From Entrophospora sp. SA101 (Eukaryota; Glomeromycota; Glomeromycetes; Entrophosporales; Entrophosporaceae), in assembly GCA_958430865.1 (NCBI GenBank), contig CAUDNR010002224.1, positions 65,515 through 129,514 on the forward strand: DNA of 64,000 nt, read 5' to 3'. Position numbers and translations under genes: made by a program. Numbering within the stretch: position 1 is the first letter of the stretch; each line of letters begins with the position of its first letter. A model generated the notes under the pieces. The model was given only the letters and a program-made list of their open reading frames with translations, did no database searches and had not been told where the DNA came from. Positions 31,804-59,520 of the stretch are shown piece after piece.

Positions 31804-32054
31804 GTAGCAATAATAATAATCATGATGAAAACTACGTTTCAGATTCTGAAGGTCAGTATCATCAGTAAAAAAATGGAGATCATGAAAGTGAACAAATCAA
31901 AGATCGTAAAAGTGTATTTATAGCATATGCCAAAATGCGTAGAAAATTAGAAACAAGTCGAGCTGTTTAAGGATGAAATGGAGAGAGAAAACAATACTGC
32001 AACACACAGCATATAGAATGAAGAAAGACGATGGCGGAACAACAATTGAAGAAG

Positions 32055-32111
<57 letters not shown>

Positions 32112-33974: not shown

Positions 33975-34055
33975 TGATAATTTTTTTCTTATCATCATTT
34001 AAAAAAATTGGTTTTTTTCATTTTGTATATTTGTTTCATGGTCAATCAATAGTCT

Positions 34056-34437
34056 ATATAGGTATTTACACCTGGTTTACTAACCATTGGTTGCTTTTAA
34101 AATCATGGATATAAACCACATTTTCAAACTCAATTCACCAGTTACAGTATCAAACATGATACCATCAAATAAAAATATTATATCATTATTAGTGTTAGAA
34201 CTAGCTGTAGCCCATGATATTAATACCGACAATGGCGCGAGGTTGCAGTTAAATCCTTCCATGGCGAAGTTGTTGCATCAAATGCTTGTGACAAATCAAG
34301 AGAAAAAATTCTTTTGATAGCCGACCATTAGAGAAACCACCCATAATATATAAATTATCGTTAACAATAATAGTGGAATGTACAAATCTTGGTCGGTTGG
34401 GCAGAATTTACTACTAATACTAAAAACAAGCATTTGA
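34056..34437 (-). pseudogene. Kelch-repeat pseudogene, N-terminal half, inverted (copy B)
   Basis: Identical to 13964-14345. Confidence 0.7.
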
Positions 34438-35449
34438 ACAATGTTAAAAATATTAAAAAGATACTTTGAAAAGTCATTTTTTAATTAAGATTGATTCGTA
34501 CGGCGATGTTGCCATGTATCCAAACCTGGACTTTAGGCTTAATCCTTCACCTGAAATTGTTAGTATTCGTGTTGTCAAAGTTGAAGACGAAGGTGGTTTG
34601 GGTTTAAAATGTGGTAAACGATAGAGATAACGGTATTATTACATTTTTATAAAAAATTATTTTTTCAAGAATAATAAATTTATTATTAAACAATTTAATA
34701 TAGCTTAATTAAATAGATGTCTAAGGGATTTTTAGGCGTATATGATAAAGAGGAAACTCTGGTCATATTTACCATTAAACAAATAATTGACAATATAAAT
34801 AAATTTGTTTGTTCAGACTGCTATTCTTTTTTGACTTTCAAAGTTTTTAGAAATTAAAGACAATTTTGAAAGTGAACAACGTTACTGAAAGTCCAACTTT
34901 CCACAAGATCTTTTTTATTAGAATTTTTTTTACCTTTAAAATAAAATCAATTTTTATTAAATGTTGCTTCTGGTTGTGTACTTTTCTATTAATCCGTCAA
35001 TAGTCCATTCTTGAGTCAATAATTCTGGAATATTATAAATACATAGATCACAAGCTAAACGTTTACCATATTTCTCCTTGATCAAAAATACTAAAGAGTG
35101 AAAACCCCAAGAGTCACGTAAAAAAACCTTTGATTAAATTAATGCTTCATTCAATTGCTTCGCTTAATTTGTGGACATTTTCCAATTGCCATCATTTAAA
35201 ATACCGCGGGTAGATAACAATCTAAAATATTATATCATGATGTGAAATACTTACTCATTGTATGGTTAAGCCAAATACAATTTCCGATTTAAATGTTAGC
35301 TTCGCCCACCATTGATGTTTCCCAATCGAAGGATAAAACATTCTTAGACAAGCCAGTCAAATTTTTGTTGAGTGACCCAAAAACATTGCCAATAATTGAA
35401 TATTTAAAAGAGAACCGAACAAATATTTGCTAGATCTAGTAAAAATATT
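34438..35449. other. Mostly non-coding, with a minus-strand coding scrap at 34957-35132 (copy B)
   Basis: Same as 14346-15357. Confidence 0.35.
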
Positions 35450-35980
35450 GTGACACGCTCCAACCAACGCGTGCTTAATGTCGTGCCCAAACCATAATGA
35501 ATGTGACGTGGCACGCCCAATTCCGTGCCTCAGTTGGTACATGGCTCTTCCGTGAATTCCTGCCCTTCTTCCATAGTGTCGCCAAGCAAATAATCAGTTG
35601 CCAGTCTAAATTACTTGTGGGGACAAACATGCATTATCAGTACCGCCTTACTGAACAGCATTCTGCAGAATCGGGGTGGAGACTGTAATAATAAGTGGAA
35701 GCTTTATGCCACCTTGCAAGCTCACTCTTATATATGATTGAAGCCAACCGAGAGGCCTATACAAGGGTCCCATCTGATGAACTACCACGGACACCCCACT
35801 AAGTGAGATGCCATAGGCAGTCTTGAGCACAGTCAAGAAAAAAAAAAGAAATGGATTGATTATTTATATGTATAAAAATCTGTAATACATGATTTTTCAA
35901 ACAAACAATTCTTTGTCCAATAATATTCAATTGTTTTTTTTTGGCGTTTTTGTTTTTTATAATTGATCTACAACAACACA
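35450..35980. mobile_element. Possible solo LTR-like insertion (copy B)
   Basis: Identical to 15358-15888: GC-richer block with TG...CA ends and no target duplication seen. Confidence 0.3.
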
Positions 35981-38275
35981 ATGGATAGTTACCACATAGG
36001 GTAACTCCGCTCTTTTCAATAATAGAAACAAGGAAATTTAAAATTAGAATATACGAATTAATCTACATAAGTCCAAGTCGCTCCAAACGAATACCATTTA
36101 TGGTAAAACAATCAATTAATCGTTAAAGATCTACCATGGAATTCAGGAATTATAGCACTATCAATCTCATTTGCATAAACCTCATAAGGTTTAATCCAGA
36201 GAAATGGGTCAAGACCCCAGGAAAAAGAAGAATGGACCTCGTGAGGGGTATTTACCACCAGATAATATTAATATTCTAGTTCATCTGATTCAAAACCATT
36301 TGTCAAAGTGCCTTTGCCTTATTTTCCCAATTTTTATGTTTTCTTTTTGCTTTCCGTGCTTAACTTTACTTTTGGGATATTTGAGTCCAAATAAAAAACA
36401 AACAAACCTCGTTATTTGATATCACATATTTATGTTCAACAAATTTAGTCTTTGTTAAATAGATCATGCATGATGCTGCTTTACCAAAATAAATATTTGA
36501 ATAAAAAATATCAATTGTAACGTAGCTGAGGAAGAAAGTTCTACCATTTTAATCGATTATTAGTTTTTTATATAATGAATTTATTTGGTAATTCAAACTA
36601 AACCATTTATCTCATTTAAAAAATTATTTTATAAATTATAAAGGATGTTGAACGTCAATGTGAATCTGTTAATAAAAAACTAATTCGCCAACATTGGATT
36701 GGAATTCCACCGAGATTTTTTAACAGCATTGAATATTCTGTCTATTATAACCTTCCAAATTCGGCTTTTTTCTTCAAAAAAGATTGCAGCAACATTTTTT
36801 ATTAAAATAATTGATAATACAAGGAATAGGAAATCATACAAGTCCGATAATTAAAATTAATTTAATTTTTTAATTTTTAATAATGAAGTAAAAAATATAT
36901 ATCTTTTGATAGTCATGATAACTATCTCGCTGCCAGAGTTAAACTGGCTTTTTAAATAGGGGTTTGAAATCACTTTTAAGCAAGCATTGGATTTCTGAAG
37001 GAACTCGAATAAAGATAATAATCATATTAATTCATTTTTTATATTGAAATAGTATTATTAGTTTTTTTTAATATAAAGAACTCTCTGCAATAAATTTGCC
37101 ATTCTTCTGGTAAGTTTATTAGTATTAGTACTTTCAATAAAACAATTATTGAATTTACATTTGATTAAGTTTCATTTCTTTTATTAACATATCTCTATTA
37201 CCATAGCTAACATAGGCATAAAATACATATAGATGGAAGATTTGTGTAAATTGTATTTTCATCAATGGCAAAGTTTATGTTATATTTTATACATAAAGGA
37301 AAAAGATATGTTTTTTTATAACAGGAATTGGTAATTTATATAAATATGCAATCATTCACATCTACAAAATAAATATTTTTTATCTTTTACCATTAAATCA
37401 TTGTAATTTATATTTCATTATCAAATACTAACATTTTAATCGTCACAATAAACTTGAACAAGAATAAAATGGAGAAAGCCTTAGTTCAGTTTAAAAGAAA
37501 TCGAATTGACAGAAGAGGAATCGGAGAGTGAATGCCACTAGTAGAATGATATCAAATCAGAGGTCGTAATTGGCTACTCAATATACAATAGATAGATTGT
37601 TGTAACATGCTGATTGTGTCAATTTATGGCATCATTCGGTAAGTAATCAGGTTATTTTGGCAGCAATTTCAAAGTCTAATCGAATACCTTTTGGTTTACT
37701 AATTGATATTAATTGATTAAAACATTCACATTGATTCTTTATTTTATTTCAATCGATATGCTATAATGAATATCTGGTTGAACTTTATTTAATTAATCGG
37801 ACATCATTCAGATGGTTATTTAAAATCAGCCAGCATTCTGGTTAGTATTAACCGTGAGTTATATGTGTATCTAATTGCTTTTTATTTTATTTTAAATTTA
37901 TAATGAATGCGAATTGATTTATTTTCAAATAATAAAAACCAAATTTTGGAATTGATTCTTTTATAACAGAATCCTTTTGTTCTTTGAATGTTCTCTTTGG
38001 ATTGGTAGCTTGTTTAGAAATCAAATAGCATTCAATCATTAGGCGATTGAAACCTACATATCAGAAGATCAAGAAGATAATAAGTATATTTGTTGTTAAA
38101 AATGTGTCATGATTTTTTTGTTGGCTTTATCTGAGCTAACAAAAGTTTTGTGAGGCAGCACAGGAGGAATGTGAGTAGGTGACTATATTATTTGTAATAC
38201 CTTTCTTAATGTCAATCAACAAATAAATTATACCTTTCCCGGTCTTTGCTTCTTTCTCTTGAACCATGTCAGTTT
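35981..38275. other. Right part of unit B, no convincing gene
   Basis: From 37473 it diverges from copy A by several percent with indels. It ends in the minus-strand exon tail MVQEKEAKTGKG (38230-38275), which is cut exactly where unit D begins. Confidence 0.4.
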
Positions 38276-38502
38276 TAACCCCTGATCAAAATAACAGAAT
38301 TCGATCAAGGGGTTAATAATATTCGCTGACCACCAATCTTCACTTGTACTTGGGATTATATAATTTCGACCATATATATCTACCCGCCTTATACTACAGA
38401 GAATATATAATGAATATTAATTAGCCAATTAATCTCTAAAATTAACAATTCATTAAAATTACTTACAATGCTTGAATGGCATTCACAACATAAATTTTGT
38501 GA
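38276..38502. repeat. Inserted hairpin-headed segment at the start of unit D
   Basis: Begins TAACCCCTGATC ... GATCAAGGGGTTA. Relative to the uninterrupted exon at 18196-18289, about 225 bases are inserted here between DMVQEKEAK and the lysine-rich start. The same segment begins unit A at 4846. A small inserted element is the simplest reading; its right boundary is approximate. Confidence 0.45.
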
Positions 38503-38695
38503 TGATATTTGAATCATTCGTGGATTTTTTTTTGTCTTGTTTTTTTTTATTTTATTCTAAAATAATCAATAGAAACCAATTATTACCAACAAGTAAAGTT
38601 GTTTAAATAGTAGCCAATATGATTATAATAATTATTAATTAAAAGGCCCAAGATTGATCCCAGGTAAATAAATATCTTGATTGGTGAAGAGAAAC

Positions 38696-38806
38696 AGGTA
38701 ATCCAATACTTGAACATATTTGTAGTGTCACCTTGGAATATGGTGAATGTATGCCAGATTATATTCTAGGACAAACAATGTGTAGCTTTATTTCTAAGAT
38801 GAGATA
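38696..38806 (+). pseudogene. ERCC1/Rad10 exon relic (unit D)
   Basis: Same sequence as 5266-5376: exon 3 of the intact gene with a one-base insertion and a lost splice donor. Confidence 0.75.
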
Positions 38807-39750
38807 CCAAACATATTTTCTCGATTTTGTTTTTTTTAAAAATAAAAATAAAAAATAAACTTGAACTTTGCTGTTAAAGATAAAGTAAAACTGCACACCA
38901 TTAAAATTTTTTAACAAATATCTTGTGTGGAATTCTCTGTATAAAGAAAGCTACGACTATTTAAAAACATTGTTACTTTTTTCTTCAAAGCTGAAGATAG
39001 GTAGGTGGTCGAGTAAGTGTAAAATACCTTAATCTTTCATATGGTTAATAAGTTTTAAAGAGACTCATAAAACTTGTTTAATAGCATTGCATTAAGAAAT
39101 GCAAGTGTATAATGAATTTTCCAAAACGAAGAATTAAACACAATGACTTTTTTATTATAAAAAGTGGGTACTATATATATAAAGAATAGAAAAATATTTA
39201 TAATAATGAAATATTTAATTCTAATTGTTATCTTATAATTAAAGGTATCCATCAATTGAAAGGTTATATATACATTTATTTATAGAGAAGGTGATAAGAG
39301 ATTAAACAATACGATTTAATTTGTTCATATTGATGTTGTAAAATTGTAAAATTTTCATATTAATCATATTAATTATAATAAACCTGAAAGTGTTAATGGC
39401 AATCTATAGTAACAAAAATATTTAACTAGATTTTTTTCAAAATAATGTAGGTTCCTAACATATTTTTCGAATAAAATATCAAGGAAACATACATATTTCT
39501 TTATTATATTAATGGGTAATGATAAATAATAAGATTTATTTTATTTTTATTTTACAATGTCATTCACATAACAAGATATTCAATTTTGCATTTGGTATTT
39601 TGCGCGGTCGCCAAAATTATTATTATACTATTTGATGTAGCTTTAGATGGTTAAACGATCTGATCCGAAAAGAGTTGGTATGTAACCATTAATCAATAGA
39701 AAATATTTCAGGAAAATTCTAAATTATCAAATTGATATATATAATCATTA
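38807..39750. other. Non-coding part of unit D
   Basis: Same as 5377-6320. Confidence 0.4.
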
Positions 39751-39987
39751 CAGTCAGGGATACTTCTTTGTTATATCTATGTTACATTTTCTAAAAATAA
39801 ATCGGTTTATAATAATTGAAAGAATAAAGATTATTATTTTTTATTCAACGAAAAGATCTGCACAGAATTTAGCCAATTAGAATTTCTTTTCATGATGTCG
39901 ATGATTACAGGGTATTATCCCTGATTGAATTTAGCCAATCAGAATTTCTTCTAGAATTTTTCATACAATCGATCATTACGGTATTTA

Positions 39988-41873: not shown

Positions 41874-43744
41874 ATATCGGGATTCGATTCCAGAATGATC
41901 TACGCAATTTTAATAGGCTCTTGTGCATTCATTTCCGTTGTAAAAACTTCATGTTTCATGTGACTTTACACAAAAAAATTTTGTTGTAATTTTAAACCAT
42001 ATCATAAAAATAAACAAACAAACATTCATATTTTAATAATCACCAAAGAGTTTAAAATAATCACCCAGACTTCAAAAAGTAAATGAGAGCTAAAAAGAGG
42101 AAAATCTTGTAATTTTTTACAAAAATTCTTATTAATATTAATAATTTAAAAAGTACTACGAGAGGAATAGATAGTATAAAGCTTTCAGTTTCAGATTAAC
42201 TATTAACTAAGGTCCTCAGTAAGCTGGATCTCAAATATATTAGTTTAAAAAAAGAATGTTTTCGTTGATTAACTTTAAAAAAGAGTAATTTCGTTAATTA
42301 ATTTCTTATTAATAGTAACATAGGAATATATAGAGTAAAAATACTTCTAGTCTGGACAGTTACCTATCAATGAATATGTAATTTCGCTTTACATGTAAGA
42401 ATTATTCAAAATAATATTTATATATATATATATATATATTAAATTTATTAAATTTATACATATATTAAATTATTAAATTTATATATTTATTGTTTTATGA
42501 ATTATTAGAGTTTATATTTAATGGGCAAGGTGAAATGGAAAAAATCTATGAGATCATGTCTGAGTTTCTATGATGATGGTGCATTTATTTAATGTTTATA
42601 CTATTACAAAAATACAATTTCTTCCAATATGCATAACAACAATTTCCATGAATATTAATATGTATTTACGCTTTACTCTCAAGTCAGGTATGTCTTCACT
42701 AAACCAAATTTATTAAATATTACCTCATTAAAAGAAAAAATAGAGACAAATATAAAATAAGAGGAAATTATTATGCATAGAACTATCATGAATTCATTGT
42801 TTGAGATAGGTTTATTATCATTACGAAAATATATAATTCAAAGACAAGGTCAAGGTCAGTTTTTATTTATTTATTATTTTATTAATTATTAACTAACTAT
42901 TCTAACTATTATGAGTTTTTCCAACTACTTTTTTAAGTTAAGGAAATTATAATGTTATTATACATGTTAAAGATTCAATTATCTAGCTCTCCAATTTCTT
43001 AAATGTAAATTAAAGATAAACAACCTTTCTTTTGAGAATAATTAATGAATGATTTGAATTCAGAATTAAAGAAATATTACAATTTAAAATGTTAGGAATA
43101 ATATTTCTTGGTAATTTCTGCAAGTTAATTATTTTATGGAAATTATATGACCAATCAATAAAGCTTTCGCCATGTTTTTCTTGTTTTCTTTTTCATTAAA
43201 GATTATTTAACGAAAAGATCTGCACGGAATTTAGCCAATCAAAATTTCTTTTCATAACGTCGATCATTACAGGGTATTATCCCTGGTTGAATTTAACCAA
43301 TCAGAATTTCTTCTAGAATTTTTCATACAATCGATCATTACGGTATTTAGTATTTCCATCTATGGAAATATCCCTGACTGCATTAGCAGTGTTGAAATTT
43401 CGTTGTGTAACTATTACAAATTTAGAAACTATATATATATATATATATATTCAAAAATTAAAATTTTGATTGGTGTGTAATGTTACTCCTCACATTCCCC
43501 ACACTGGATTTTCAACACTAATCATTAGCCAATCAAATCAAATTTCACGTGATATCTTGGTGACAATTTTTAACCAATCAAATATGATCGACGAAAATGT
43601 CCACTATGCTACACAAATTTGATGTAATTATCCAATTATTCAGTAAACAATATCAAATATGTATAAATACGGCTTTGATTTTAAAAAAATTCAAAAAAAA
43701 AAATATATATTATTATATTATATATTTATTGTAAATATACATAA

Positions 43745-44796
43745 ATGAATATTAATACGAAAAAAACAAATCATTTATTGATTTTAAGATTATTTCAAAT
43801 TTTATTCTCAATTATAGCATTTGGATTAGGTAAATAACTGATATCAATAACTGATAATTGATATAATGGATATTAATTTTCTTATTTCCACACAGAAATA
43901 ACGCAAATAGTGTTTTGGGTATTATTACATAAGTCAGTTATTGTTACATATTATACTACTTATTATTATAATAAAATTCGATAGTAAGTTCCTTTTTTAT
44001 TATTTCAATCTCTCAAATTACATATTTAATTACTGTTTTTTTATTTATTTTTTGTTCTATTCATTAACCATGTTAATAGTTATTATGCAGTGAAATGGCT
44101 TTATTTTACAGTTGTCATTACGTCTGTGCTGATCATAGGTAAATTAATTAAATAATGACAATGATGATGATAATGGTTAATGATTATTATGATTTAATGA
44201 CGATAATAATTAATTAATGATTATTTTTTATTATTAGGATATTTTATTATATTTTATAAGAAAAGATTAAAAAGTGGTCCATATAAAAAAGATTATTTTA
44301 TTGACAGGTAAACAGTTTATTTAATTAGAGATTTCTTGTTTTTAGTCAAAGCATTTAATTAATTCATTAATTAATCAATGATTCAATTTTTTTCTAAAAA
44401 TTATAATCATCTAGTGGACTATTCGTTGTATGGATACTTACAAGTATGTCTTGCTTTTTTGTTTTTTCGAAAAATCACAAATTAAATTGCAATTAAATTA
44501 ATTCACTTGTATATTTTTTTTTTCAATCAATTAAAGGTATCAATTATAAATCAACAACTTATCAGAAATTAACAGCACTTCCAATACAATGCGCAGAAAT
44601 CAGCTCAGTTCCTACTGAATATTCAATCTTATGTTACATGTACACCATATGTATGATTCTAAATTTCTTCATAGCTGCTAGTTACATATTATCATTCGTA
44701 ATTTCTTTTCATTTATACCACTATCATCATCAATGCCATGATCAAGCTTACAAAGCAATAAAGAATAACAGAGAAGAAGATGATAAAATTTTTTGA
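43745..44796 (+). CDS. Four-transmembrane protein, MARVEL-like (copy C)
   Basis: Same six exons and product as 6953-8004 (offset 36792). All three copies are intact, in contrast to the neighbouring FBPase. Confidence 0.75.
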
Positions 44797-44959
44797 AAAA
44801 ATCATTTTATTTGAGTTTTGATTTTTAATTATTAATATGTATAATATAATATATGATTGACATCATTATGTGATTATTACAGATAATAAATATACTATTT
44901 AAACTAGAAAAAATAAAATTATTCCATATAATTTTTGAATTCTTATAGTAAATAAGATA

Positions 44960-45319
44960 TGGATGTTTATTCGGATCAACCTCTCCAACCACTGATACCA
45001 ATACTAGTAATTCATTTCAATCACAAGAAGAACATAAATTAAAAATGGCAAAACAAGAACAAGAACACAGCAACAAAAAGGACAACAACGATGGCAACAT
45101 TGCCACAATAATTATCAACAAGGACATCATAATTATCGACAGCAACATCAACAAGGACAATATTCATCAGCTCAACAACAATCTCAATCAACACATTCTC
45201 CAGCCTATTAACTTTCCTTCAAATTCATCATCACCATATCCTTATAACTCAGTAACTTTGCCACAGCAACAACCACCTTCATTCAACCAAAATATCAATA
45301 AAAAAGATTATAGTTTATA
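44960..45319 (+). pseudogene. Gln/Asn/His-rich coding remnant (copy C)
   Basis: Identical to 8168-8527. Confidence 0.3.
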
Positions 45320-45320
45320 A

Positions 45321-47322
45321 TCATTTCAAAAGTATTTATCATTTTTTTCTTAAATTGCTTAATTTTATTATGGTCATTCATAATAATAAATAAAAATATA
45401 TTTAATTAGATCAAAAAACAATGATAAACAAATTAAATAACTCAGAAGAGCCATATGGTAATTATTATAATCATAATAATAATAAGGAATTTCTCATATA
45501 TCACATTAATAATTTTAACTTTTAATCAAGGAATGCAAATTGCTGATGGCAAAATGAAAATGAGTTCTGGTTTACTTAAATTTGAAACTATTTCAGATTT
45601 AGGAATTTATAACACATCTTCTATAAACCAAGGAATTGTAAAAATTAAAAATTGAATTCCAAATTATAAATTCCATAGATGTTTATTATTGGTGATGAAG
45701 TTTATGATGATAAAATTTTTCTGATAATAAAGTTTTTCTTCTATATTTTGAATCAAATTTCCACATTACCATCAACAATCCACGAAACAAAAAAAATGTC
45801 AAATGTAAATGTTCCACTACATAAAAAACTTGCAAACAATCCTAATATATTTCCAATAACCCTTTGCAATAATTTGGAAATAGTGATGCTAAAAAATTTT
45901 TGAATAATAGCCTAATTCTTTAAAACTTTCATTAAATATTTGATGCCACCTAAATTCAAAGTCAAATAGATATTATAAATAATTTAAAAAGATTTAGAGT
46001 TAGAAGTTATATCTATGCATGTGCATGTGTATGTATGTATACGTACCCTTCACTCCATAAATCTTTTGGGTTTGATGATAATCATGCTTTATTAAATAAT
46101 GGCTCTGATTCAAATAATGTCCTCCTCAACCAATTCCTAATCCTTGCTATTATTGTTGTTGTTTTTAATAGAAATCATTGAAGAGATACAGAGAAAAGAA
46201 TATTTGCAATATTATTATTATTGGTATTATTAGTAGCATTTAATAATAATAACAATTTATTTGTGATTGGTGATGAAATATTTTCCATGAACCTGCTGAT
46301 ATTAAGAGAAGTTGTTCATAAATAGAATTCATATTAATATATAGAAATATACTATATAATAATATTGTTGATTAAGTAACAAATGATGCAGATGCTGATA
46401 ATGATATGTGATCTAATGTTTGATCCATTAGGAGCAGTTGTGATGGTGGTGATGATGATGCCAATTTAATGATGCAGTTATATAGTCCATTATTCTCAGA
46501 ACATATGGTCTATCAGATATTGAGATGGTGAATGATTCCATGAATATTAAGCAGACCTCTCAAATTTGAAACATTTCAAGAAGGCTAAATAATCTTGACA
46601 ATAAATATGATTTAAGATTTATTTGTTCCTTTTTTTAATTGAGTCAGTAAAGTTGGTAGAGTTGATGATTTTATCATTAGTGCAACTCAAATTATCTTAG
46701 TGAAATAGTGCCCATATGAAAGGTTTGAAATCTTTTTCTATTTCTTTTTGTGTTCTTTTTATTCTAGTTTCTGTTGATTTTTTCAATCATGACAACATTT
46801 TGAATGTTAAAGATGCTATTATAACAGGAATTGACAAATGATTTTTACATGAAAGCTTGTTGCAACAATTAAAGATAACAAGTAAATTGATAAAATCACC
46901 AATATTAATTAATATTAACATTATTATATATGTAGAAAATGTAAACTTTTTTGTTATTATTAACAAGTTTCCAAAAAAAATAAATCTAATCATCATTTTT
47001 TTTAATATACAGGTGTTAGCAGAAAGGATCTACATGTAAGTCTATTACTATTATAGATTCATGGAAAGTACAAAATAAAGATAGTAATAGTCTATACTAA
47101 CTTTTCGTCTTTCTTAATTTTATATATTCATTTAGTAATAATAATAATAATAAAAATAATAATGATATATAATTTTTTTTGTTCGCATAAATATTTTGTG
47201 AACACGAAAATTTATATTATCATCAAGTGAAAGAGATCTAATGCTCGATATTTCAGGCTTAAATTTTTTCATTTCAAATTAAATAATCGTAGAAAAAATT
47301 TTTATTTGGTTTTCATTTCATT
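45321..47322. other. Unit interior without a convincing gene (copy C)
   Basis: Same content as 8529-10530. Confidence 0.4.
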
Positions 47323-48450
47323 TCATTGCCTCTCTTTGAAATCAGCATAGAATTTTTCTATATTTTCAACATCATCTTTGCTACCCAAGAAAAATAGGAC
47401 ATCCGGAATGAATAGATTCCAGTACAATATCAAGCACTCGTTTCCTACCATCTGTAACTTGCCACTCACCATTTTGTTCAGCCAAAAAGACAATTCATAC
47501 AAGATACGAAGCTTGCCATTTTTTGATTTTTTGTCACCTGGATATGCGGATATTTCACTGTATAACAGAATTGAACCAATGTAACGAGTTGAATAAGGAT
47601 TTTTACCGAGAATCGAAATGTTTCTTACATGGTTCATATCAATATTTTTCATTTCCCTCACTTATTGAACATATCTTTCCACGAGATGGAATTATGATCT
47701 GTGTTAGTTGAGCGAGAGTGATCGAGGAAATAAATAAATCAACTAACTATAATAATTGGATGGATAGATTAATTAGATGTATTAATGTTTACATTAGGAT
47801 GAGTAAGAATAAATTTTCCAATTGCCTAAAAAGATAAAAAAAATAAAATCATATGTAATTGTCAACAAAATTAATGATTATTAATTAATTGTCCTTACGT
47901 CAAATAGTTACTACCAGCGTCGGATCAAATACCGTCAACAATGATTGAATATTCGTCCTTCCGAAACCATTTACAGCAAACTTTACCAGATGAAAAAAAT
48001 GTATCAACAAAATCTCATTGGAAATCACATCCCTATTTTTTTTTGTTCTTTACCTGAAATATTTGTTGAATCACCTGCAAGTCCAATTCTGAATTATTTG
48101 GGAAGGGAAAAGAAGGTAATTCTTTGGTTTCAATTCATAAATTACATATGATATATATATATCAATTATTGACAATTATTATTATTAATTACTATTAATT
48201 GCTGTTATTTATTACTTACAAATTCAAAAGTCTAGCTTTTCTAACCTTATTAGCTACAAATCTACAACCAAGTTGAATTGCATTTAACAATGTTGTCAAA
48301 TCGCCACCTGTATCTTTATGTTTATGTTGTTCATCAAGAACATGTCTTGTCAATGTGATAATATCAGTTGTAACCTTTACTTCGGCTGAACTATTTATTT
48401 TATATTTACTTGATTTGTTTGTATTGCAAACACATGCACGATTATTTCCT
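47323..48450 (-). pseudogene. Fructose-1,6-bisphosphatase pseudogene (copy C, better preserved N terminus)
   Basis: The N-terminal exon (about 48440-48222) is undamaged: TTDIITLTRHVLDEQHKHKD, then TLLNAIQLGCRFVANKVRKA, followed by a good GTAAGT donor. Splicing to an AATTCAG acceptor near 48095 gives IGLAGDSTNISGKEQKK, after which the frame breaks (TGA). Near 47930 the metal-site segment reads FDP and then AGSN only after a frame change. The C-terminal exon (47323-47625) is the same as in A and B. No start codon in frame is visible, although an ATG exists one frame over. Lesions differ from those of A and B in the middle exons, so decay was partly independent. Dead as an enzyme unless the middle region is misassembled. 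Confidence 0.8.
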
Positions 48451-48528
48451 CCATATTTATTTAAAAAAAAAAAATGTCTCAACAAGTAAAAAAAAGCGCG
48501 GATTCTCCAGATAGCAATAATAATAATC
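48440..48528. promoter_or_regulatory. Compact divergent promoter between FBPase and IMPACT-ERCC1
   Basis: The first conserved FBPase codons (minus) and the possible ATG of the plus gene (48474) are separated by only a few tens of bases containing a poly-A tract. Any promoter must therefore be shared or overlap the coding starts. No TATA box is obvious. Confidence 0.35.
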
Positions 48529-50418
48529 ATGATAAAAAACAACGTTTCAGAATCTGAAGGACCAATAGCATCAACAGTGGTGGTAAAAAATGGAGTTTAT
48601 AAGAGTGAACAAATCGAAGATCGTAAAAGTGTATTTATAGCATATGCAAAACGCGTAGAAAATAAGCAACAAGTCGAACTGTTTAAGGATGAAATGGAAA
48701 GAGAAAATAATACTGCAACACATAACATCATAGCATATAGAATAATGAAAGACAATGATGGAGCAACAATTGAAGGTTAATAATAATTTTTTTTTGTTGG
48801 GAATTAGAGAACTTTGTGTGCATAGCGCATAAAGAAAAATAATAATTATAAAGTATAAATTTTTATTTTTATTTTTATTTTAGAATTTATTGATGATGGT
48901 GAAAAATATGCAGGAAACCGAGTTTTAAATTTATTAAAATCATTGGATGTTAAAAATGTGGTAATTATAGTTTCTAGATGGTATGGAGGAGTTATGCTTG
49001 GTCCGGCACGTTTTGATCATATCGAGAAATGTGCGAGAGAAGTATTAGATAAAGGTAATTTTGTAACTGGTAAACGAACTACTCCTGTTAGGGGTGGTTC
49101 ATCAACTGGTAAGATAATCGTTAATGGATGTCAGGTAAATGTCTCGATTAATGATCTTTATAATTTTTAGAAAAAAAAAAAAAAATAATCTTTTTGCAAA
49201 AAAAATTATTAATATTGAAGAGAGGTAATCCAATACTTCAACATATTTGTAATGTTACTTGGGAATATGGTGAATGTATACCAGATTATGTTCTAGGACA
49301 AACAACGTGTGCTTTATTTCTAAGGTGAGATATAACATCAATTGATAATCATAATGATGACAATGATGATTATTATTAATACAATAATATTAATATTACT
49401 GTTGTTTTTTAGCCTTAGATATCATCGACTTCATCCTGAATATATTTATAATAGAATTCAACAATTAAAATACAAATATCTATTAAGAATACTTTTGGTT
49501 TTAGTTGATATAGTATAGTATTATTATTTCATTTCACTAATTAATTCATTCATTGGTTTTAGAGAGAGTTGGGGCTTGCTAGGAAATTGGCAACCAAAAT
49601 GAGATTTTTTTTGCTTAATGTTATTATATTTTTTGTCCTGCTAAATTTTCTTTTCTTTTTTTTTATATGATGTAAATAGGATTCTCATCAAGATTCTATT
49701 CGTGAACTTAGCAAAGTTTGTGTAATTAATAATTTTACTGTGATATTAGCTTGGAGGTAAAAAATTGAAATTAATTAATTATGAATGATTGATCTTGGAT
49801 TAAATAAAAATAAATTTATTTTTTTTCCAAAAAAATTAACAATTTAAAAAGTCAAGAAGAAGCAGGAAGATACCTCGAAACTTATAAATCATTTGAGTAT
49901 AAGCCACCAGATATGATTATGGAAAAAGTTCAAGATGATTATTTGTCAAGGGTAATTATATCTAATGTTAATACAGTTGGTATTAATATATTATTTAATA
50001 TTAATTTATTGTTAATTTATTATTGATAGTTAACTCATTCCATGACGCAAATAAAATCAGTTAATAAAACAGATGTGATAACACTTGCTTCATCAGCACG
50101 TGTAAGGATTTTTCTTTTTTTTATAAAAAGTTAAAATATAAATACTATTTGATTTTTATATTAATGAATGAATTAATTGGTTTGACGTTGGTGGTGGTAA
50201 TCATAGTCATTGAAAAGGTTGATGTCAATGCCATCTGATGAAATTGGATTGTGTCCAGGAATTGGTGAACAAAAGGTAATAATAAATTAACTGGCAAAAT
50301 GAGGAAGGAATTAATATATTTATTTTACTTTATTTATATATTTTTTTATTTTTAGGTCAAAAGAATTTTTGAGACATTTAATGAACCATTTTCACTAAGT
50401 AAAAAGAAGAAAAATTGA
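48529..50418 (+). CDS. IMPACT (UPF0029)-ERCC1/Rad10 fusion protein, nine exons
   Basis: Exons: 48529-48775, 48884-49134, 49221-49324, 49413-49512, 49680-49756, 49852-49951, 50030-50101, 50207-50275, 50356-50418. All are GT-AG with matching phases, giving 360 codons. Residues 1-140 form an IMPACT/YIH1-type domain: [58 protein letters not shown]. From about residue 155 the protein is ERCC1: KIIVN-x-x-[77 protein letters not shown] and the second helix-hairpin-helix [25 protein letters not shown]1 partners XPF in 5' incision during nucleotide-excision repair; IMPACT proteins bind GCN1 and restrain GCN2. Exon 2 encodes both the end of IMPACT and the start of ERCC1, so the fusion does not rest on a predicted splice. 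The start could instead be ATG 48474 (MSQQVKKSADSPDSNNNN) if one A in the run near 48535 is an error. Confidence 0.85.
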
Positions 50419-50787
50419 AATTTAATTGTACATTTATATATTAAATAATTAATTTAATTAGAAATATTTAATTTAAATTTAAACCAAAATCTTAAATGTT
50501 ATCATATATAAATTATAATTTTCTTTTAATAACCATTGAAACCACTCGGATTTACCACCACATTTGGTGGTGATTTTAAACAGGTTGGCATTGGAAATGG
50601 ATCGTAATTAAAAAGGAGGGCACAAATTACTATTCCACATACCGGTCTATATAATTTATGCAACCTCTCATTATATTAATTATCATAAGAAAATTAATTA
50701 ATAACCAGAAATCCCATTTTAATTGAAAATAAAGCTACATTCACATTATGGGCTAAATGAAAGAGAATGGAAAAGTAAAAAGTGAGA
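50419..50787. other. 3' intergenic region
   Basis: AT-rich. No gene; CCACCACATTTGGTGGTGA palindrome near 50558. Confidence 0.4.
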
Positions 50788-50885
50788 TACACATCTAAAC
50801 TCGATAAGTCGGACAATTTATTTATATTAATAAAGTACTTTAAACAATTGATTGCTGCGTCCGACTTATCGAGTTTAGATGTGTA
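50788..50885. mobile_element. Minimal palindromic MITE, 98 bp including TA flanks
   Basis: CACATCTAAACTCGATAAGT (first 20 of 25 bases) at 50790 is exactly inverted up to 50883. TA lies immediately outside on each side, as expected for a mariner-type target duplication. The internal loop is only about 44 bases. There is no coding capacity. Confidence 0.8.
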
Positions 50886-50941
50886 CAACTAAATTGATTA
50901 TAATTAATAAATTATAATTTAGTGTTATTAACTCCATTACA

Positions 50942-50973
<32 letters not shown>

Positions 50974-51520
50974 TTAAAAAAATATAATAGTATAACAGTT
51001 GATTTAATACAATTAAAAATCATCAATTATCTAGGTGTATATATATATATTATTTATTACATAATATTACTAATACACATTTCTTTTCCAAAAAAATATT
51101 AAAATTTTGGGGTGGGGTGTTTGGATATGAAATTCTGATTGGCTAATTTGAATTTCGCATGTGTAAATTACAATATTTCATTTTCACGCACAACAATTGT
51201 TACGCGACTATTATTATTATTATTTATTTTAACGTGCAGTTTTTTATCATTTTTTCTTTTCCAAAAATGTAGAAAGAATTGTTACATAAAAATAAATTTG
51301 GATGATCGACATAATATGGCCTACGTTTATTCGTAGTGTTAAGAATTAAAAAATGCGATCCATATTAAATAACATTCAGTAAATTAATTGTATAACAATG
51401 AAAATTGTGTTTTAATATTCTTCAAGTTATCAGCGATATATTATTATTATAATGATCAATCATTGGTTGAATAAGTATATTTATATGTTGAACCAGAATA
51501 AAAAATAATTTTTTTTTAAT
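50886..51520. other. AT-rich spacer with ATT microsatellite
   Basis: (ATT)n at about 50943-50971. An open frame at 51139-51336 with a hydrophobic middle is unrecognised. Confidence 0.35.
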
Positions 51521-51935
51521 GTTAGATGAATTAAATGTTGAAGATGTTCATGAATCTGGAGTAGACGCTGATATCAATATCATAATAAATTGGAATCTTT
51601 TGGGCAATGTTGGGAACAATTTAATATTTTTGAAGATGATATTATCAGTGTTAGATCTTTGTGGATGAGAGATCACAAAATTGTAAATTGAAGATATATT
51701 GATTCTGATGCTGGTATTTTAAAATCAACCTTCAATGTTGATAATATTGCAAATGATACAAATGGAAAACTTCAAAATAATTTTAATGTTTTAATGAAAT
51801 CAAGTAAATTAGAAATTCCTTATAGAATGAATAAAAGACAATTAAAACAAATTTCAACGTATATTTGATAAATATATTGTAATTCTGAATGGTAAAAAAG
51901 AATCACCACATACATTACCTGCATCTTTAAAATGA
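51521..51935 (+). pseudogene. Decayed gene of unknown family
   Basis: Protein-like sequence is spread over three frames: LDELNVEDVHESGVDADINI, then WEQFNIFEDDIISVRSLWMR, then RYIDSDAGILKSTFNVDNIA and LMKSSKLEIPYRMNKRQLKQ, then FDKYIVILNGKKESPHTLPA. At least two frameshifts and a TGA. Not recognised. Confidence 0.4.
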
Positions 51936-53379
51936 TTTTGGTCATGAAAAAAAAAAATAGGCCCTAATTTAATGTTAAATGGTTGTTGAGTCGGTTTAAA
52001 AACCGTGCAGTCTGTCGATCATATACTTAAATGCGATTGGTCAATTTTTAACAACTGTGGTTGATAAATATGATTGGTTAATTTTAATAACCGCGATTTT
52101 AGTACAATCGATATAATTTATTAAATTAAAATTAAAACCCAGATTGATTGATTATCTATCATTTAAAATGATTCAATCGATGGTTCAACCATATTTGGCT
52201 TGGTTTAGCCGTTGAGTAAACTGTTTAAACATCCCTAAATTTAATATTTAATTAATTAATAAAACCCCCATTATTTTATGTGTAGATCAGTCGATAAACC
52301 ATAATAATTTTCTTTAAATTTTATATTTATTGGCTGAAATTTTTTACGCGTGATAAATTTTAAAAACTCAATCTTTTATGTTGTGAAACATACGATAAAA
52401 ATGGGCGCCGTTTTTTTCACAGGTAATAATAATATTTGTTTTACTTCACTTCAATTTGGACAATTTGATCAATTAGAAGTAAAACTTTAAAGGTTTCAGA
52501 GATCTACACACATCAGAATTGTTCCCTTACTTTTTTATAAGTATCGTTGTGAAAATTAACTGTAATGTTAAGAATGATTGAATATTCTTATGATCAACTC
52601 TTTTATTACAATAATAATAGGTAGTGAGTGGTAAAATTTTATTTTTACATTCTCATTTATATGGTAATATACTTTAGAAAGAAGTATTTAATTTTATAAT
52701 TTATATAAATTATATAATTCTTTTTTATAGCACATAATGTAAGAAGGTAATGTAATAGAAAGATTACATGTGTTTTCTTGTATATATATAGGTTATTTAT
52801 ATTATTTAAAAATAGGAAGGCAACAAGTATTGACAAACCTACTAGACAACGAGTAGTAAAAATGATTTAATGGTGAAGACAAAGAGTAGGTAAAAGAGAA
52901 GATATTAAGACTACTGTCCAACAATTAAAGAAATAAAATAAATATGACATCAAGAAATAATAACGAAGACAAATAAATAATAAATAATCATATTAATATA
53001 TTTATTTAGAATGTCATATATAAAAATTTGAATAATAGAATCATCGAGCCAATAAAATTTGTGACAATTGGAAATAAATGATCATCATAATTTAGCCAAT
53101 GCAGGCAATGAGATCAAATGTTCAGTAATTTTTTGAGTAACGTAATAAAGTTTAATTTAACTTCAAAAACCACGTGACCAAAAATGGTAATTCTAGACTA
53201 TAAATATCAACCAATCAATTTAAACAATGTATTACGTAACACTAAACTCTGCCGTTTTCCTTTTATAATAAATATTTTTATTATACATGTAGTTCCAATC
53301 GAATGTTTCTTTTCTACAACAAACTGTTCAAATTTTTTTTTCTAAAAAAAATTTTTTACTTGTAAAAAAATAAAGAAGC
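51936..53379. other. Intergenic, no gene supported
   Basis: A 29-codon ORF at 52401 (MGAVFFTGNNNICF) and a possible transposon end TTAGGGATGTTTAAAC (inverted, near 52235) are the only notable items. Confidence 0.35.
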
Positions 53380-53783
53380 TAAATCCAAAAAATTCAAAAA
53401 AAAAGGAGAAGAAAGAGAAGAAAGAAAGAGTGGGAGGGAAAAAAAAAAGAAATTCGTAAATTAGTAAAGGTTTTGTATTTTATATTATTTCCGACATTAA
53501 GAAAAAAGATATTAATTATTCACAAAATAATATATATGACATTAGAGCAATTTATTAATAAAAAAGTAATAATAATATTTATTAATATATTTTTTAGGAT
53601 TTAAAATTGAATATTTTTAAAAAAAATTTTCACAGGCAAAACATTTAAAAAAAAATTTATTTTTATTCAAGGTATCTTACTTTATTTTAATAACTTTATT
53701 TTTTTATTTTAAAAATAGTTATTAATATATTTATACATTTTTTTAAAAAATTAAATATTGATAATTAAAGAAAAAAGATAAAA
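53380..53783 (+). promoter_or_regulatory. Probable promoter/5' UTR of the ankyrin gene, purine-rich
   Basis: A strongly purine-biased strand (AAAGGAGAAGAAAGAGAAGA and onward) lies at 53400-53455. Long A/T runs follow up to the ATG in AAAAATGGGAGG. A transcribed leader is likely; no TATA box is convincing. Confidence 0.3.
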
Positions 53784-53919
53784 ATGGGAGGAAAGAATAG
53801 TTATGAAATTGATATGGTTGATTCAGAAGATGGTTATGCGGCAACTAGAGGTGATTGTTCAGAAACAGAAAAAGATGAATATTTAAGACGTAGAAATGAG
53901 GAAAAAGAAGAATCATCCA

Positions 53920-53950
<31 letters not shown>

Positions 53951-56900
53951 CAACATTATCAACATTAATAGTAATAATAACAATGAAAATATAAAAAAAT
54001 CTATTAATTCAAATGGTAATAGTAATGGTTGTGGCAACAACATGAAACGCATGAGATCTAATTCTTCATTTGATGGTTATGATGATTTTTATGATGTTTC
54101 TGAATTAAGTTCTGTTGATTCTAATGAAGATTCTAGTAGTAGTAGCAGTAATAGTAGTAATAGTAGTGATGATGATGATGATAATGATATTACTAATAGT
54201 AATAGTGATGATGATGATGATATTATTAATAGTGATAGTAATGGTAGTGGTAGTGGTAGTAGTGATTATGATGATGATGACGACGATGACGATGATTATG
54301 ATTATCATCGTTTTAATAGGACAAGTAATAGTAAGAATAATAAAAATAAGAACTCGCAACCAAAAAAACGCGGAAGACCTTCTAAAAGAATTTCATTATC
54401 AAAAACAAGTGACGAAGAATATATTCCTAATAAAGATATTAAACAGACAACTAATAACAATAGTAACAATTATTATTATTACAATAATAAGATTAGTGGC
54501 AATAATAAAACAAAAGGAAGTAGAAGACCTGGTAGACCGGCAGGTCAAAAGAAACAACAAGAACTACAGCTTGGTAGAAATAAATCTAATAATAGTGCTT
54601 CAAAAAAACAAAATTATAAGGACAATTATTATATAAATAGTATAAACAATGACAATAACATGAATTATAGCACTACTGCTAATAATAATAATAATAACAA
54701 TAATAATAATCAAAGACCTACTAGTAAAAAAAAAGGTATCGACGAAAATGATGTATTAGCAAGAGATAGAGCAGGTCAAACTAATTTACATAAAGCTTGT
54801 CAGTCTGGGAATATGGAAAGGACGAAGGATTTAATAAAAAGAGGGTCAGATATAAATGCTCGTGATCATGCAGGTTGGACTTCTCTTCATGAAGCATCTC
54901 TTAACGGCCATTTGGAAATTGTATATTATCTTTTAGAAAATGGTGCTGATGCTAATGCTGCATCACTTGATGATTGTGATACTCCACTTCATGACGCGTG
55001 CGCTAAAGGTCATTATGATGTTGTATGTGCATTATTAGAATATGGTGCTGATCCCGATAAAGCAAATGCAAAAGAAGAAAAACCTGAGGATCATTCTAGC
55101 GAGGAAAGTATCATTAAATTATTAAAAACTCCAGTAGAATATGTAAAAATACCTGAAATCATACATTATAATTCATCACAAAGATACTCACCTTCTTTAT
55201 ATATAACGGGTGAAGGTATTTATTGATCGTTATTATTAATTTTTAACAAATTAAATTATTTAATTGTTTATTTATTACTTTTATTATTTAATTTTTATAA
55301 GATTTTGATAGCAGAAGAACGTCATTGATTTCGGGTAAACGTGGTAGACCTAGAATTAAACAAGAAGATATCAAAGATAGTGGTTTATCTAAAAGATCTG
55401 AAAATCAAAAAACTACTCGTAGAAGAGTCTCACTCCGAGATAGTAAAATTCGTGAAGGTGATTTACATAATAATGGTGCAAGGGCAATTGTTTCTGCTAA
55501 CGATGTTCTTAGGATGGATCTTAAAAGTAGAGACTCATCCGGACGTAGTAACCTTCATATTCATGCCAAAAGAGGTAATGCAGAAATGGTTGCAAACATG
55601 ATTGAGGCAGGTGCTATGATCAACGGAACTGACAATCATGGCCGTACTCCATTACACGAAGCTGCATCAGAGGGTCATAACACAACAATGGAAATATTAC
55701 TTGCTTTTGGTGCAGATATAAACGTCAAAGATAAAAAATTAAATACACCGCTTCATGATGCTGCTCATAAAGGTCATATCGAAGTTGTAAAAATACTGTT
55801 ACAAAACAACGCTCAACCTGATGGTAAAAATATTGATGGTAAAACACCTTTGGATTTGGCTAGGCGCAGAAAAGACATTGTTGAGTTGTTATGTGAAGTT
55901 CTTGATTTGAATCCAAAAGACTACTTAATTCCAACCAGTTGTAATAATAATAACATTATTATTAGTGATAATAGTATTGGTGGTGTTAGTAGTTGCAATA
56001 GTCGCAGTAGTAGTATTAGTGCTAGTAGTAGTAGGAGTAGTAGGAGTAGTAGGAGTAGTAGGAGTAGTAGGAATAATAATTATAATTATAATATTAGTAA
56101 TTGTAATAATAACAACAATGATAATTATGATGATAAAAGGAAAATTACATCTAAAATAAAATTAGAATCATCTGATTGTGAAGCTATGTTGATAGATGAT
56201 GATGATGATGATGGCAATAATTCACCACAAGAATTTGATGAACTTGCAATTAGTCCACCGCGAGATTCAATGGAAATTCAAACACCAGATTATTTAAGAA
56301 TAGAATTTGCAGATAAATATATAGGACCGTTGTACACAGTTCAATTGGATACCACAAGCACCGGATATCCACTTACCACACCTACGATTCCTCCGACAGC
56401 AACTTTATTTGTGGTTGATTTACAGGTGGAATTGTTTTTGCAATGGAAAGTAAATTCTTTAACAACATCACAACCAAATCTTACCAGAAGACTCATCACA
56501 ACAATAGAAAAAGAACGACTCTGGCCATTGTTACGATCCATAGTATGGGCACCACCAAAATCTATTCGTCCTTCTGAAATGGGAATACTGGAAGATGCTA
56601 GAAAAATAAAATTTTTAGAATATCAAATGTATTTTGTAAAGGTTAGTATTTAAATATTGTATGTAGCTATGAAATAAATAAATAAATAATCTTCTAATAA
56701 TACTTGTTTACTTGATTTAAATAGTATGAAGAAGTTCTTAAGTTAATGGAAATTCATTTCAAAAATTCATTTACCAAATCCATTTCAACTATGGCATTGG
56801 ATATTTCAGACTATCCAAATCTAGATGTAGCTCTTTGTCATCATTATAATGATCGTAACAATAATAATAATCATAATCAAAATCATAATCATCTTTATAA

Positions 56901-57177
56901 TCATCGTCAACTAGATAATAATAATGATGATGAAAAAATTAACAGCAAGAATAATTCAATGGAATTAGACGATTTTTCATCTAAATTACCACTTACACCT
57001 ACTTCACCAACTACACCACTTCTTAATTCTCAATGGGGAGTTACAACTAATTCTCCGCCTCTTATAACAGCTTCTACTACTACCACCACTGCTTTATTTA
57101 TAAAAAAGGAACATAATGGAAAATTTAGAGACAATAATAATATTAGCAATACAAAACAATTAAAAGGGTTGAGCTGA
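53784..57177 (+). CDS. Ankyrin-repeat protein with AT-hooks, three exons (chromatin-associated, possibly Hos4-like)
   Basis: Exons 53784-55215, 55302-56641 and 56725-57177 join in frame (phase 1, then phase 0) into about 1074 residues. An alternative donor at 55210 keeps the frame. The N-terminal ~190 residues are acidic and Ser/Asn/Asp-rich. Three AT-hook cores occur: KKRGRPSKR (~193), RRPGRPAGQ (~246) and GKRGRPRIK (~488). Two ankyrin blocks follow: ~328-430 (TNLHKACQSGN, WTSLHEASLNGHLEIV, TPLHDACAKGHYDVV) and ~555-680 (TPLHEAASEGH, TPLHDAAHKGHIEVVKILL). A conserved-looking C-terminal domain runs from ~806 (PDYLRIEFADKYIGPLYTV to LEYQMYFVK|YEEVLKLME), then an N-rich tail. AT-hooks imply binding of AT-rich DNA. 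Ankyrin subunits of this general build occur in the fungal Set3 deacetylase complex (Hos4), which is my best but unproven suggestion. Confidence 0.85.
53924..54312. repeat. Trinucleotide tracts within the ankyrin gene
   Basis: Runs of AGC/AAC, AGT/AAT and GAT codons encode Ser, Asn and Asp tracts. Because the repeats are near-pure, other frames are open too, producing spurious Ile/Val/Met-rich frames on both strands. Confidence 0.8.
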
Positions 57178-57459
57178 GTAATATTATTATTATATCGTAT
57201 TTATTGACTTTATTATTTATTATTTATTTATTTTCTAATAACAAAATCATCCATTGACAATTCACCCAACATCATAACTTCTAAATTAATTTTTTAAAAA
57301 AAAATTTTAATCTAGGATATAAAATATAGTATAAAAAGAAATCAAATAATAACTACCTTCAGTTGTAACAAAATCCTTGACTTTAATTAAATAAAAAGGA
57401 AACTTAAAATAAATTTAAAATTAAAAATTTAACAATTAGTGAATTTTAGTTCATCAATT
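57178..57459. other. 3' region of the ankyrin gene
   Basis: AT-rich; nothing else seen. Confidence 0.4.
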
Positions 57460-57750
57460 TAATTACTTTCATTATCATCAATTTCAGAAACAACTTTAGA
57501 TACTGGACCAAGTTCAGAATCTTGTAAACTTTTATATTTAGCATTACCATCTAATATCTTGTTTGAATGTTCAATCAATTACTTCAGATACTTATTCAAG
57601 TTCGACATCATTTGTAAACTTTTATATTTGGTAATATAATCATCTAATATTCTGCTTGAATGATCAATTACTTCAGATACTGGCAAGTTCAAAATCATCT
57701 TGTAAACTTTTATATTTGGTAATATCGTCATCTAACATTCTGCTTGAATG
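57460..57750 (-). pseudogene. Decayed gene end made of three ~35-residue tandem repeats
   Basis: On the minus strand the unit SSRILDDYITKYKSLQ recurs three times (SSRMLDDDITKYKSLQDD in a broken form, ILDDYITKYKSLQ, and ILDGNAKYKSLQDSELGP) with frameshifts between. It ends VSKVVSEIDDNESN-stop at about 57460. A lost protein with helical repeats is likely; family unknown. Confidence 0.5.
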
Positions 57751-58165
57751 ATATGCCAATGGATGTATACATTTGTCGTGATTTATTTTACAGTTTCATC
57801 TAGTGATTGATTCATTCATACGGGCTGAAATCGAACATTTACATAATAATAAAGTGTGATAATTCCGAATTCTGTGAGACAAAATTGTTTTTAAAAATTT
57901 TTTATTTTATTTTATTTTCATTTTTAAACCAATAAGCAACTATATATATGTTTTTCCTATGTTATATATGTTTTCCAATCCTATGTAAGTTGTGAGGATC
58001 TATCTAATACGAATAAAAAAAAGTGCTAAAAAGATTTTTTTTTTTACAATCCAAAATTTGTTTCCATTTACTATTTTATGAATGAAATCGTTAATATTTG
58101 GAGGAGTTTTTATTACTATATAGTTTGTTAATATTAATTATATAAATTGTAAAGGTAAATTAAGT
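57751..58165. other. Non-coding spacer
   Basis: No coding signal. Confidence 0.4.
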
Positions 58166-58172
58166 ATAGTGA

Positions 58173-58710
58173 TTATTTTTGTATGTCACAACTATAGTCA
58201 CAACCAGTATCCTTAAAATGAAGATTAATATCTACATGTAAAAAATCATTCCTTGCACTTGATGAAGAAATGTTGCTAACTCCAATTATATTAGAATCAT
58301 TTGAAATTACAGTGAACTGTATTTTATTTTCTGATAAATATGTTGTTTTACAGCAAACAGAAAATTTTGACAAAATAGTTTGAACTTCATAATTGTTGGG
58401 AATTTTATATTTTTTACAGTAAATATTGTATTTTCTGGATAGTATCCAAGAGATAAGATAGTATATGTTTTATATTTCTTTAAGTTGGAAATTAAAGTTG
58501 CTTCAATAGTGGGATTGTTAGGATAGTTATGTAAAAAGGTACGAGAGCTTGTAGAAATCATAATATTTTTAAAAGTTATATTTATATGACGTGTAATAGG
58601 TAGTGATTGACCATAAACAATGGTAAAATAACAATGATCCCGTTTGTTAAACCTTTCACTGGTATTGAACCAGTGATCAACTAAACCTACTTGGTTTTAC
58701 GCGTTATTTA
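58173..58710 (-). pseudogene. Frameshifted gene of unknown family, beta-rich
   Basis: From about 58710 down: VGLVDHWFNTSERFNKRDHC, YFTIVYGQSLPITRHINITF, TFLHNYPNNPTIEATLISNL, YTILSLGYYPENTIFTVKNI. After a frameshift near 58385 it continues SKFSVCCKTTYLSENKIQF, VISNDSNIIGVSNISSSSAR, to CDYSCDIQK and stop at 58173. Alternating polar/hydrophobic residues, Asn-x-Ser/Thr sites and several Cys suggest an extracellular beta-sandwich protein. One base change would restore the frame, so a sequencing error is possible. No start codon was assigned. Confidence 0.45.
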
Positions 58711-59032
58711 TTTTTGATGTTAATATAGAATTAAAAATAATAACAATAAGATTATTTAAATGATCAACATCATCTTTAACTTTCTCATTACAAAAAAAAA
58801 ATTCAATCAGTTTTAAATAAATATATATATAGTTTGAAAAGAAAGAACATTAATTTTTTTTTCAAAATGACTAGTAACGTCCTATTAATTTTTTTATACA
58901 TAGATTTTTTTTTGTAAGGCGTTTTTACTTCAATAAACAAATAGAACATTCTATTTATAAACAAAGCTTATCAGAGGCAATAAATAGTAATAAAAATAAT
59001 GAGATAATTTTATTTTTATTTTTTAAAAAAAT
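58711..59032. other. Non-coding spacer
   Basis: AT-rich; no gene seen. Confidence 0.4.
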
Positions 59033-59033
59033 A

Positions 59034-59315
59034 TAATGGAAAAAATATAAAAAAGAATTGGCTGAATTCTGGTCCTTAATCAACAAAAACAATATTTCAA
59101 GAACCTGCACTACATATAAAAAATTAAACTTTTTGGAAAAGCATATAATTCAATATGGGAACCAAATTAATTTAAGGAATAATGTTTTAGAAAACTTGAT
59201 AGAATTTGTAAAAAAGTATGAATTATCTAACATGATTGAATATAAAATTTGTTTAATTGATGAATATGAAAAGAAATACATTAGAAGAAGTAAAAAAGTT
59301 ATTTTATTAAATTAA
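59034..59315 (+). CDS. Open frame of unknown function, possibly an exon fragment
   Basis: Reads KKYKKELAEFWSLINKNNIS, CTTYKKLNFLEKHIIQYGNQ, ENLIEFVKKYELSN and on to KKVILLN-stop. It looks like a charged helical protein with a plausible amino-acid pattern, but it has no ATG in a good position and is closed upstream by a stop. Perhaps the last exon of a gene or a relic. Confidence 0.3.
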
Positions 59316-59520
59316 TTAGCAAAATTAATTAATTCGCAGATCATTTATCAACCAGGGGGCTTTAATAGAAAATGCGGGGTACATTTACTAATTTAAAAAA
59401 GGAAAATAATTGACCATGTTTGTAAAATGGTTATATATACAACGAACAGGAGAGAACGTCCTATATAAGGAATGGATTTTCACAATTGATTTCAATTTTT
59501 TTTATACAGTTTAAAATACT

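Follow-up and report, generated by a model that had tools for sequence, protein, structure and literature searches.

ERCC1/Rad10 is the non-catalytic partner of XPF, and proteins of the IMPACT/YIH1 type combine an RWD domain with an ancient domain (UPF0029, PF01205). In Entrophospora sp. SA101, one gene within a 64,000-nucleotide stretch of contig C1352 (positions 65515-129514, hereafter the window) almost certainly encodes a genuine fusion of the ancient IMPACT domain to ERCC1. Like ERCC1/Rad10, the fused protein has the central domain, the XPA-contact residues, the (HhH)2 region and the terminal Phe; unlike ERCC1/Rad10, it carries a folded N-terminal IMPACT domain, which occurs in 11 of the best 120 ERCC1 matches listed and in none of the other 109. 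Like IMPACT/YIH1, its UPF0029 domain shows the same motifs, and its first intron falls at the same residue and in the same phase as that of the genome's own YIH1 gene; unlike those proteins, it has no RWD domain that we could find, is joined to ERCC1 and stands apart from YIH1 in a 44-row tree. The N-terminal domain also has the fold of the bacterial YigZ/TT1547 family (1vi7, 2cve), whereas the second, C-terminal domain of that family (DUF1949, PF09186) was not found by Pfam in the window protein.

A parallel exists in the FANCM-XPF fusions proposed in chytrids (PMC11061109), which would likewise be a lineage-wide fusion of an XPF-ERCC1 subunit in early fungi. In contrast to the chytrid case, whose parts are both known repair proteins, the present fusion involves the other subunit, another partner and another lineage. 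The same survey of Fanconi anaemia proteins, which includes ERCC1 and covers early fungi including Rhizophagus, describes the architecture as conserved in the analysed Opisthokonts except for FANCJ and SLX4 (PMC11061109). The preliminary description of this locus knew of no protein joining IMPACT and ERCC1, and none was found in the titles and abstracts returned by a literature search in which few subscription journals were covered. As far as searched, the fusion is thus visible in public databases, which list both domains on these proteins, yet undescribed in print.

Judged by sequence comparison, one frame crosses the junction, the same domain order recurs in four orders and both halves are conserved, with no RWD domain found in the proteins scanned and no second ERCC1 in the genome. 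Nine exons on the forward strand (48529..50418), with GT-AG introns of 78-167 bases and matching phases, give a product of 360 residues that is stop-free inside, in agreement with the nine-exon, in-frame fusion first proposed. The junction itself lies within exon 2 (48884-49134), which, again as described, holds the second half of IMPACT, the linker and the first ERCC1 residues (GKIIVNGCQ). Pfam places UPF0029 at residues 32-137 of this protein (E 1.2e-32) and the Rad10 central domain (PF03834) at residues 160-272 (E 1.9e-50). Yeast Yih1 (6bqi) aligns to fused residues 22-142, and residues 92-293 of human ERCC1 (6sxa) align without a gap to fused residues 151-352 (202 residues), so that a complete ERCC1 begins at about residue 151. 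The RWD domain (PF05773) is absent from the Pfam results for the window protein and the three relatives scanned (P0005, P0009 and P0010), and the IMPACT domain of the fused proteins has no more than ∼20-50 residues ahead of it; the same search does detect RWD in the genome's own YIH1 (E 1.1e-12). HHH_5 matches were obtained in all three of these relatives, and none reached E 0.001 in the window protein.

Both halves of the fused protein retain family-defining residues. The positions of human ERCC1 N110, Y145 and Y152, which we take to form the XPA-binding pocket, are kept in 12 of 12 aligned rows, and the XPF-contact Phe (F293 position) in 11 of 12, the remaining row being a truncated model. 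The role of F293 in XPF contact is documented (PMC6320978), as is the mapping of XPA and FANCG binding to ERCC1 residues 92-119, with GGGF as the XPA motif (PMC6320978). On the IMPACT side, 35 positions are conserved among 31 YIH1-type rows, and 29 of these persist in three quarters or more of the 13 fused rows. Mean pairwise identity reaches 0.77 in the ERCC1 core, 0.66 in the HhH region and 0.62 in IMPACT, against 0.30 in the linker and 0.13 in the N-terminus (11 of the 12 rows; P0001, whose model is missing part of exon 2, was left out).

The 11 fused proteins carrying both PF03834 and PF01205 among the best 120 of 2673 ERCC1 matches come from Entrophospora candida, Gigaspora margarita, Cetraspora pellucida, Scutellospora calospora, Rhizophagus irregularis (a cluster of 10 sequences), Funneliformis geosporum, F. 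mosseae, Diversispora eburnea, Geosiphon pyriformis, Ambispora leptoticha and A. gerdemannii. A query with a 126-residue IMPACT piece (14 candidates, 5 matches) adds Dentiscutata erythropus and Racocetra fulgida, both with the two domains, together with an Acaulospora morrowiae fragment, marked partial, that has IMPACT alone. The same order is therefore present in 13 named species besides the window, which extends it to other Glomeromycotina and supports the earlier suggestion that IMPACT replaces the N terminus normally seen in ERCC1. Two of the 109 IMPACT-less matches are incomplete models from within Glomeromycetes (P0012, and P0014 of Acaulospora morrowiae, marked partial), and the listed ERCC1 proteins of Mortierella, Mucor, Umbelopsis, Basidiobolus (partial), chytrids and animals have no IMPACT domain. 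A query with the IMPACT region of Geosiphon, for which 120 of 122 matches were listed, gave two with Rad10, both from Glomeromycetes; this search cannot prove absence elsewhere, since it missed nine of the 11 fused proteins.

Taxonomically, the fusion spans four of the five orders of Glomeromycetes (Glomerales, Diversisporales, Archaeosporales and Entrophosporales) and was not seen in Paraglomerales among the matches listed. Orders were taken partly from taxonomy look-ups, and Rhizophagus, Funneliformis, Diversispora and the remaining genera stand where we presume them to belong. The gene models of relatives differ at their edges, and P0001 is missing part of exon 2. A metagenomic frame (P0122) runs on after NGCQ and the A. 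gerdemannii model has 14 extra residues after NGERQ, both of which would fit an intron at the position of the window's exon 2/3 border. A gene-prediction or assembly artefact is ruled out by the occurrence of both domains in one protein in the 13 other named species.

The separate genes of the genome were surveyed across 101 Mb in 2123 contigs. Rad10 gave eight matches: two exons in the window gene, the same two on contig C2069, and one exon-3-like fragment that is present four times on C1352; a Rad10 search of 14 control genomes gave 0 matches. A second full ERCC1 gene, whose existence would have undermined the initial proposal, was not found by this genome-wide search, which returned decayed pieces only. 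UPF0029 gave four matches, one here, one on C2069 and two in exons of a single gene on C1552, a canonical YIH1 of three exons and 342 residues with RWD (E 1.1e-12) and UPF0029. The genome thus has a separate IMPACT gene, a point that the preliminary description had left for checking. Whole-gene DNA comparison yielded 16 matches. Two are full copies; the 5' half accounts for four (75%), the exon-3 fragment for another four (89%) and a decayed fused copy on C161 for four pieces (68-71%), while the last two are small. The C161 copy contains stops and retains the order of IMPACT end, junction and ERCC1. These copies leave the fused gene as the sole ERCC1 found, and at least one decayed copy was fused as well. 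Candidate partners are also encoded: an XPF-like locus on C328 has an ERCC4 domain and a 131-residue frame weakly matching human XPF (E 2.6e-4), and an XPA-like locus on C1814 contains DTRGGFLAEED.

In 10 of 10 relatives (P0002-P0011), the stretch from the IMPACT RW motif to the first ERCC1 residue contains no Met, and the nearest one beyond it falls 58-98 residues inside ERCC1. The window protein and P0001 have a single Met in that stretch, within the IMPACT motif, and their next one is 123 residues into ERCC1. Internal AUG initiation therefore cannot yield a whole ERCC1 without part of IMPACT. The reading that the halves function as two proteins or are separated by cleavage, or that alternative first exons make ERCC1 alone, could draw on the public SA101 model (P0012), which shows a 96% match to the ERCC1 part across half of the query and opens at exon 3, without the IMPACT half. 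The junction falls within exon 2, however, and the first two residues of P0012 disagree with the exon-2/3 reading; an indel in exon 1 may have hidden the 5' part of the gene from the gene finder. With the Met-free stretch in all 10 relatives added, a two-product arrangement appears very improbable.

The IMPACT half is of the eukaryotic kind, since the fused gene and the YIH1 gene of this genome have their first introns at the same aligned residue and phase (E83/D248, phase 1). A bacterial origin of this half is unlikely in view of that intron position and phase and of the failure to find PF09186. The first domain tree used 49 rows, which a redundancy filter had retained from 132, and five long-branch rows were dropped for a second tree of 44 rows. 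In the latter, one branch (100/100) has all 13 fused rows on the same side, and they stand apart from the YIH1 of this genome; a tree in which the fused rows and this YIH1 are held together is not rejected (p-AU 0.559). Duplication of the lineage's own YIH1 is not shown: the best 44-row tree separates the two, but the joint tree is not rejected. A single fusion event would have preceded the split of the four orders, with an IMPACT domain of eukaryotic type that would have been retained since.

Taken as a whole, the explanation that we consider probable is that this locus is the fungus's ERCC1, with IMPACT in place of the variable N-terminal tail and serving for docking or gating beside the XPA groove. 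The XPF partnering, DNA grip and XPA docking of ERCC1 are most likely unchanged; the ERCC1 half would pair with XPF via its (HhH)2 domain and XPA would bring the fused ERCC1 to lesions, as in other eukaryotes. The IMPACT half would form a separate fold, tethered by a short variable linker beside the XPA groove of ERCC1. Because this short linker precedes the site residues, IMPACT may be placed to gate the XPA/FANCG site or to hold an extra partner there. Its conserved loop face could dock XPF-ERCC1 on a partner or gate the groove, and for such a docking or gating role we see the balance as even. Literature searches on YigZ and on the ERCC1 N terminus returned nothing on the role of those parts, and one for YDL177C-type proteins, presumably fungal IMPACT proteins, found none. 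The invariant motifs of Yih1 and YigZ are reported to lie on one face, thought to bind something conserved and as yet unknown (PMC4503747).

A passive passenger is the alternative to such a role: the joining would be a chance event, and IMPACT, with no partner of its own, would perhaps aid the folding or stability of ERCC1. The function of the ancient domain, conserved in all kingdoms, is given as unknown or elusive (PMC4503747; PMC7140605) and its partners as elusive (PMC4503747), and Ambispora has lost part of the motif set. Yet 29 of the 35 family-conserved positions are kept, and the linker varies freely (0.30) against 0.62 for IMPACT, which makes a mere passenger unlikely.

The preliminary description had also suggested that the fusion may couple repair-nuclease activity to nutrient or translational stress; such coupling, to the GCN1-GCN2 amino-acid stress pathway, is not supported. 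The domain does belong to the same family as the IMPACT/Yih1 ancient domain, which reportedly adds to Gcn1 binding. Yeast Gcn2 acts in a G1/S delay after DNA damage, and IMPACT overexpression reduces the UV activation of Gcn2 (PMC4503747). However, Gcn1 binding of Gcn2 and Yih1 is ascribed to RWD (PMC7140605), which was not found in the window protein or the three relatives scanned, and coupling to GCN2 is weak for that reason. Overexpressed RWD alone causes strong growth inhibition under amino-acid starvation (PMC7140605), and the genome has its own RWD-IMPACT gene. A link between XPF-ERCC1 and this pathway through the IMPACT half is consequently hard to credit.

When a fusion persists throughout a deep lineage, its parts usually cooperate, and the lasting fusion hints that the IMPACT domain has a job in DNA repair. 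A bolder and rather doubtful proposal is that the ancient domain has a DNA-repair role, a link that Glomeromycetes would have fixed by fusion to their only ERCC1, gating or targeting XPF-ERCC1 at the XPA site. The Gcn2-independent role of Yih1 in the G2/M phase of the cell cycle and its binding of Cdc28 (PMC4503747) would fit a nuclear task of the domain. The fusion is thereby a concrete lead tying the ancient IMPACT domain to the XPF-ERCC1 nuclease, and a molecular trait that arbuscular mycorrhizal fungi share across four or more of their five orders; the control of ERCC1 in these fungi may thus differ from its control in model fungi.

Several points weigh against the docking or gating ERCC1 favoured here. 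The IMPACT half has no known partner, and the predicted structure leaves the relative orientation of the domains unfixed (pTM 0.43). Both Ambispora proteins have lost several IMPACT motif residues, including part of the GETAAG motif. The genome search for ERCC1 was made exon by exon in a fragmented assembly, with the fused gene itself as the sole positive control. The gene model rests on DNA, and an alternative first exon may give an ERCC1-only transcript. In the 49-row tree, which includes the five long-branch rows, the fused rows do not form one group and need two changes; they form one group in 40% of bootstrap trees.

The exon arrangement follows from translation supported by Pfam for exons 1 and 2, by alignment to human ERCC1 for exons 3 to 8 and by residue comparison for exon 9, all on the forward strand. 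Exon 1 (48529..48775, from the ATG at 48529) encodes the first half of IMPACT/UPF0029. Beyond the junction exon, the ERCC1 central domain occupies exon 3 (49221..49324, RGNPIL...), exon 4 (49413..49512) and exon 5 (49680..49756), and ends in exon 6 (49852..49951), where the helix-hairpin-helix region begins; the latter continues through exon 7 (50030..50101) and exon 8 (50207..50275, LCPGIGEQK), and exon 9 (50356..50418) carries the C terminus with the XPF-contact Phe (human F293) and the stop.

Of the span proposed earlier, the nine exons stand and the start at 48529 does not. Between 48300 and 50500, the C2069 copy differs from the window only by two single-base indels, both in A runs. With one A fewer near 48534, its frame starts at the ATG corresponding to window position 48474 and gives 378 residues; the extra A puts this ATG out of frame in the window, leaving ATG 48529 as the start. 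The natural start (MSQQVKK...) thus adds an N-terminal extension at 48474..48528 on the forward strand, nearly identical to the N-terminus of the Entrophospora candida protein (P0001). The extra A may stem from an error in the assembly or represent an allele, and the IMPACT domain is complete in both versions. Window positions 47215-59519 recur at C2069:23533-35845 (the contig end) at 97.6% and then 100% identity, as a haplotype, a duplication or an assembly overlap. Downstream, the public models of E. candida and Entrophospora sp. SA101 extend ERCC1 into the stretch 51492-51868, where open frames resemble, by eye, the tail of P0012; this looks like annotation over-run, because ten other fused proteins stop soon after ERCC1.

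The contig is rich in repeats. Segmental repeats of 99.5-100% identity pair 6411-17915 with 26503-37998, 25951-31113 with 42651-47813, and 4846-6557 with 38276-39987, and gene fragments in or near them reappear elsewhere on the contig. The 5' half of the gene has four degenerate copies on the contig; those at 11269-12315 and 31361-32407 cover the upstream region and the IMPACT half, match 48000-49126 at 72% identity and are interrupted by stops and frame breaks. Copies of the ERCC1 exon-3-like fragment (89%; four on the contig) lie at 5255-5376 and 38685-38806, and each of the four sits 6-7 kb from an IMPACT-half copy. A recent rearrangement in this setting is ruled out as the source of the fusion by the 13 other species, and the decayed C161 copy also keeps the junction. 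Immediately upstream, head to head with the fused gene, the minus-strand frames 47323-47661 and 48216-48596 encode pieces of fructose-1,6-bisphosphatase (PF18913, PF00316) that look degenerate by eye.
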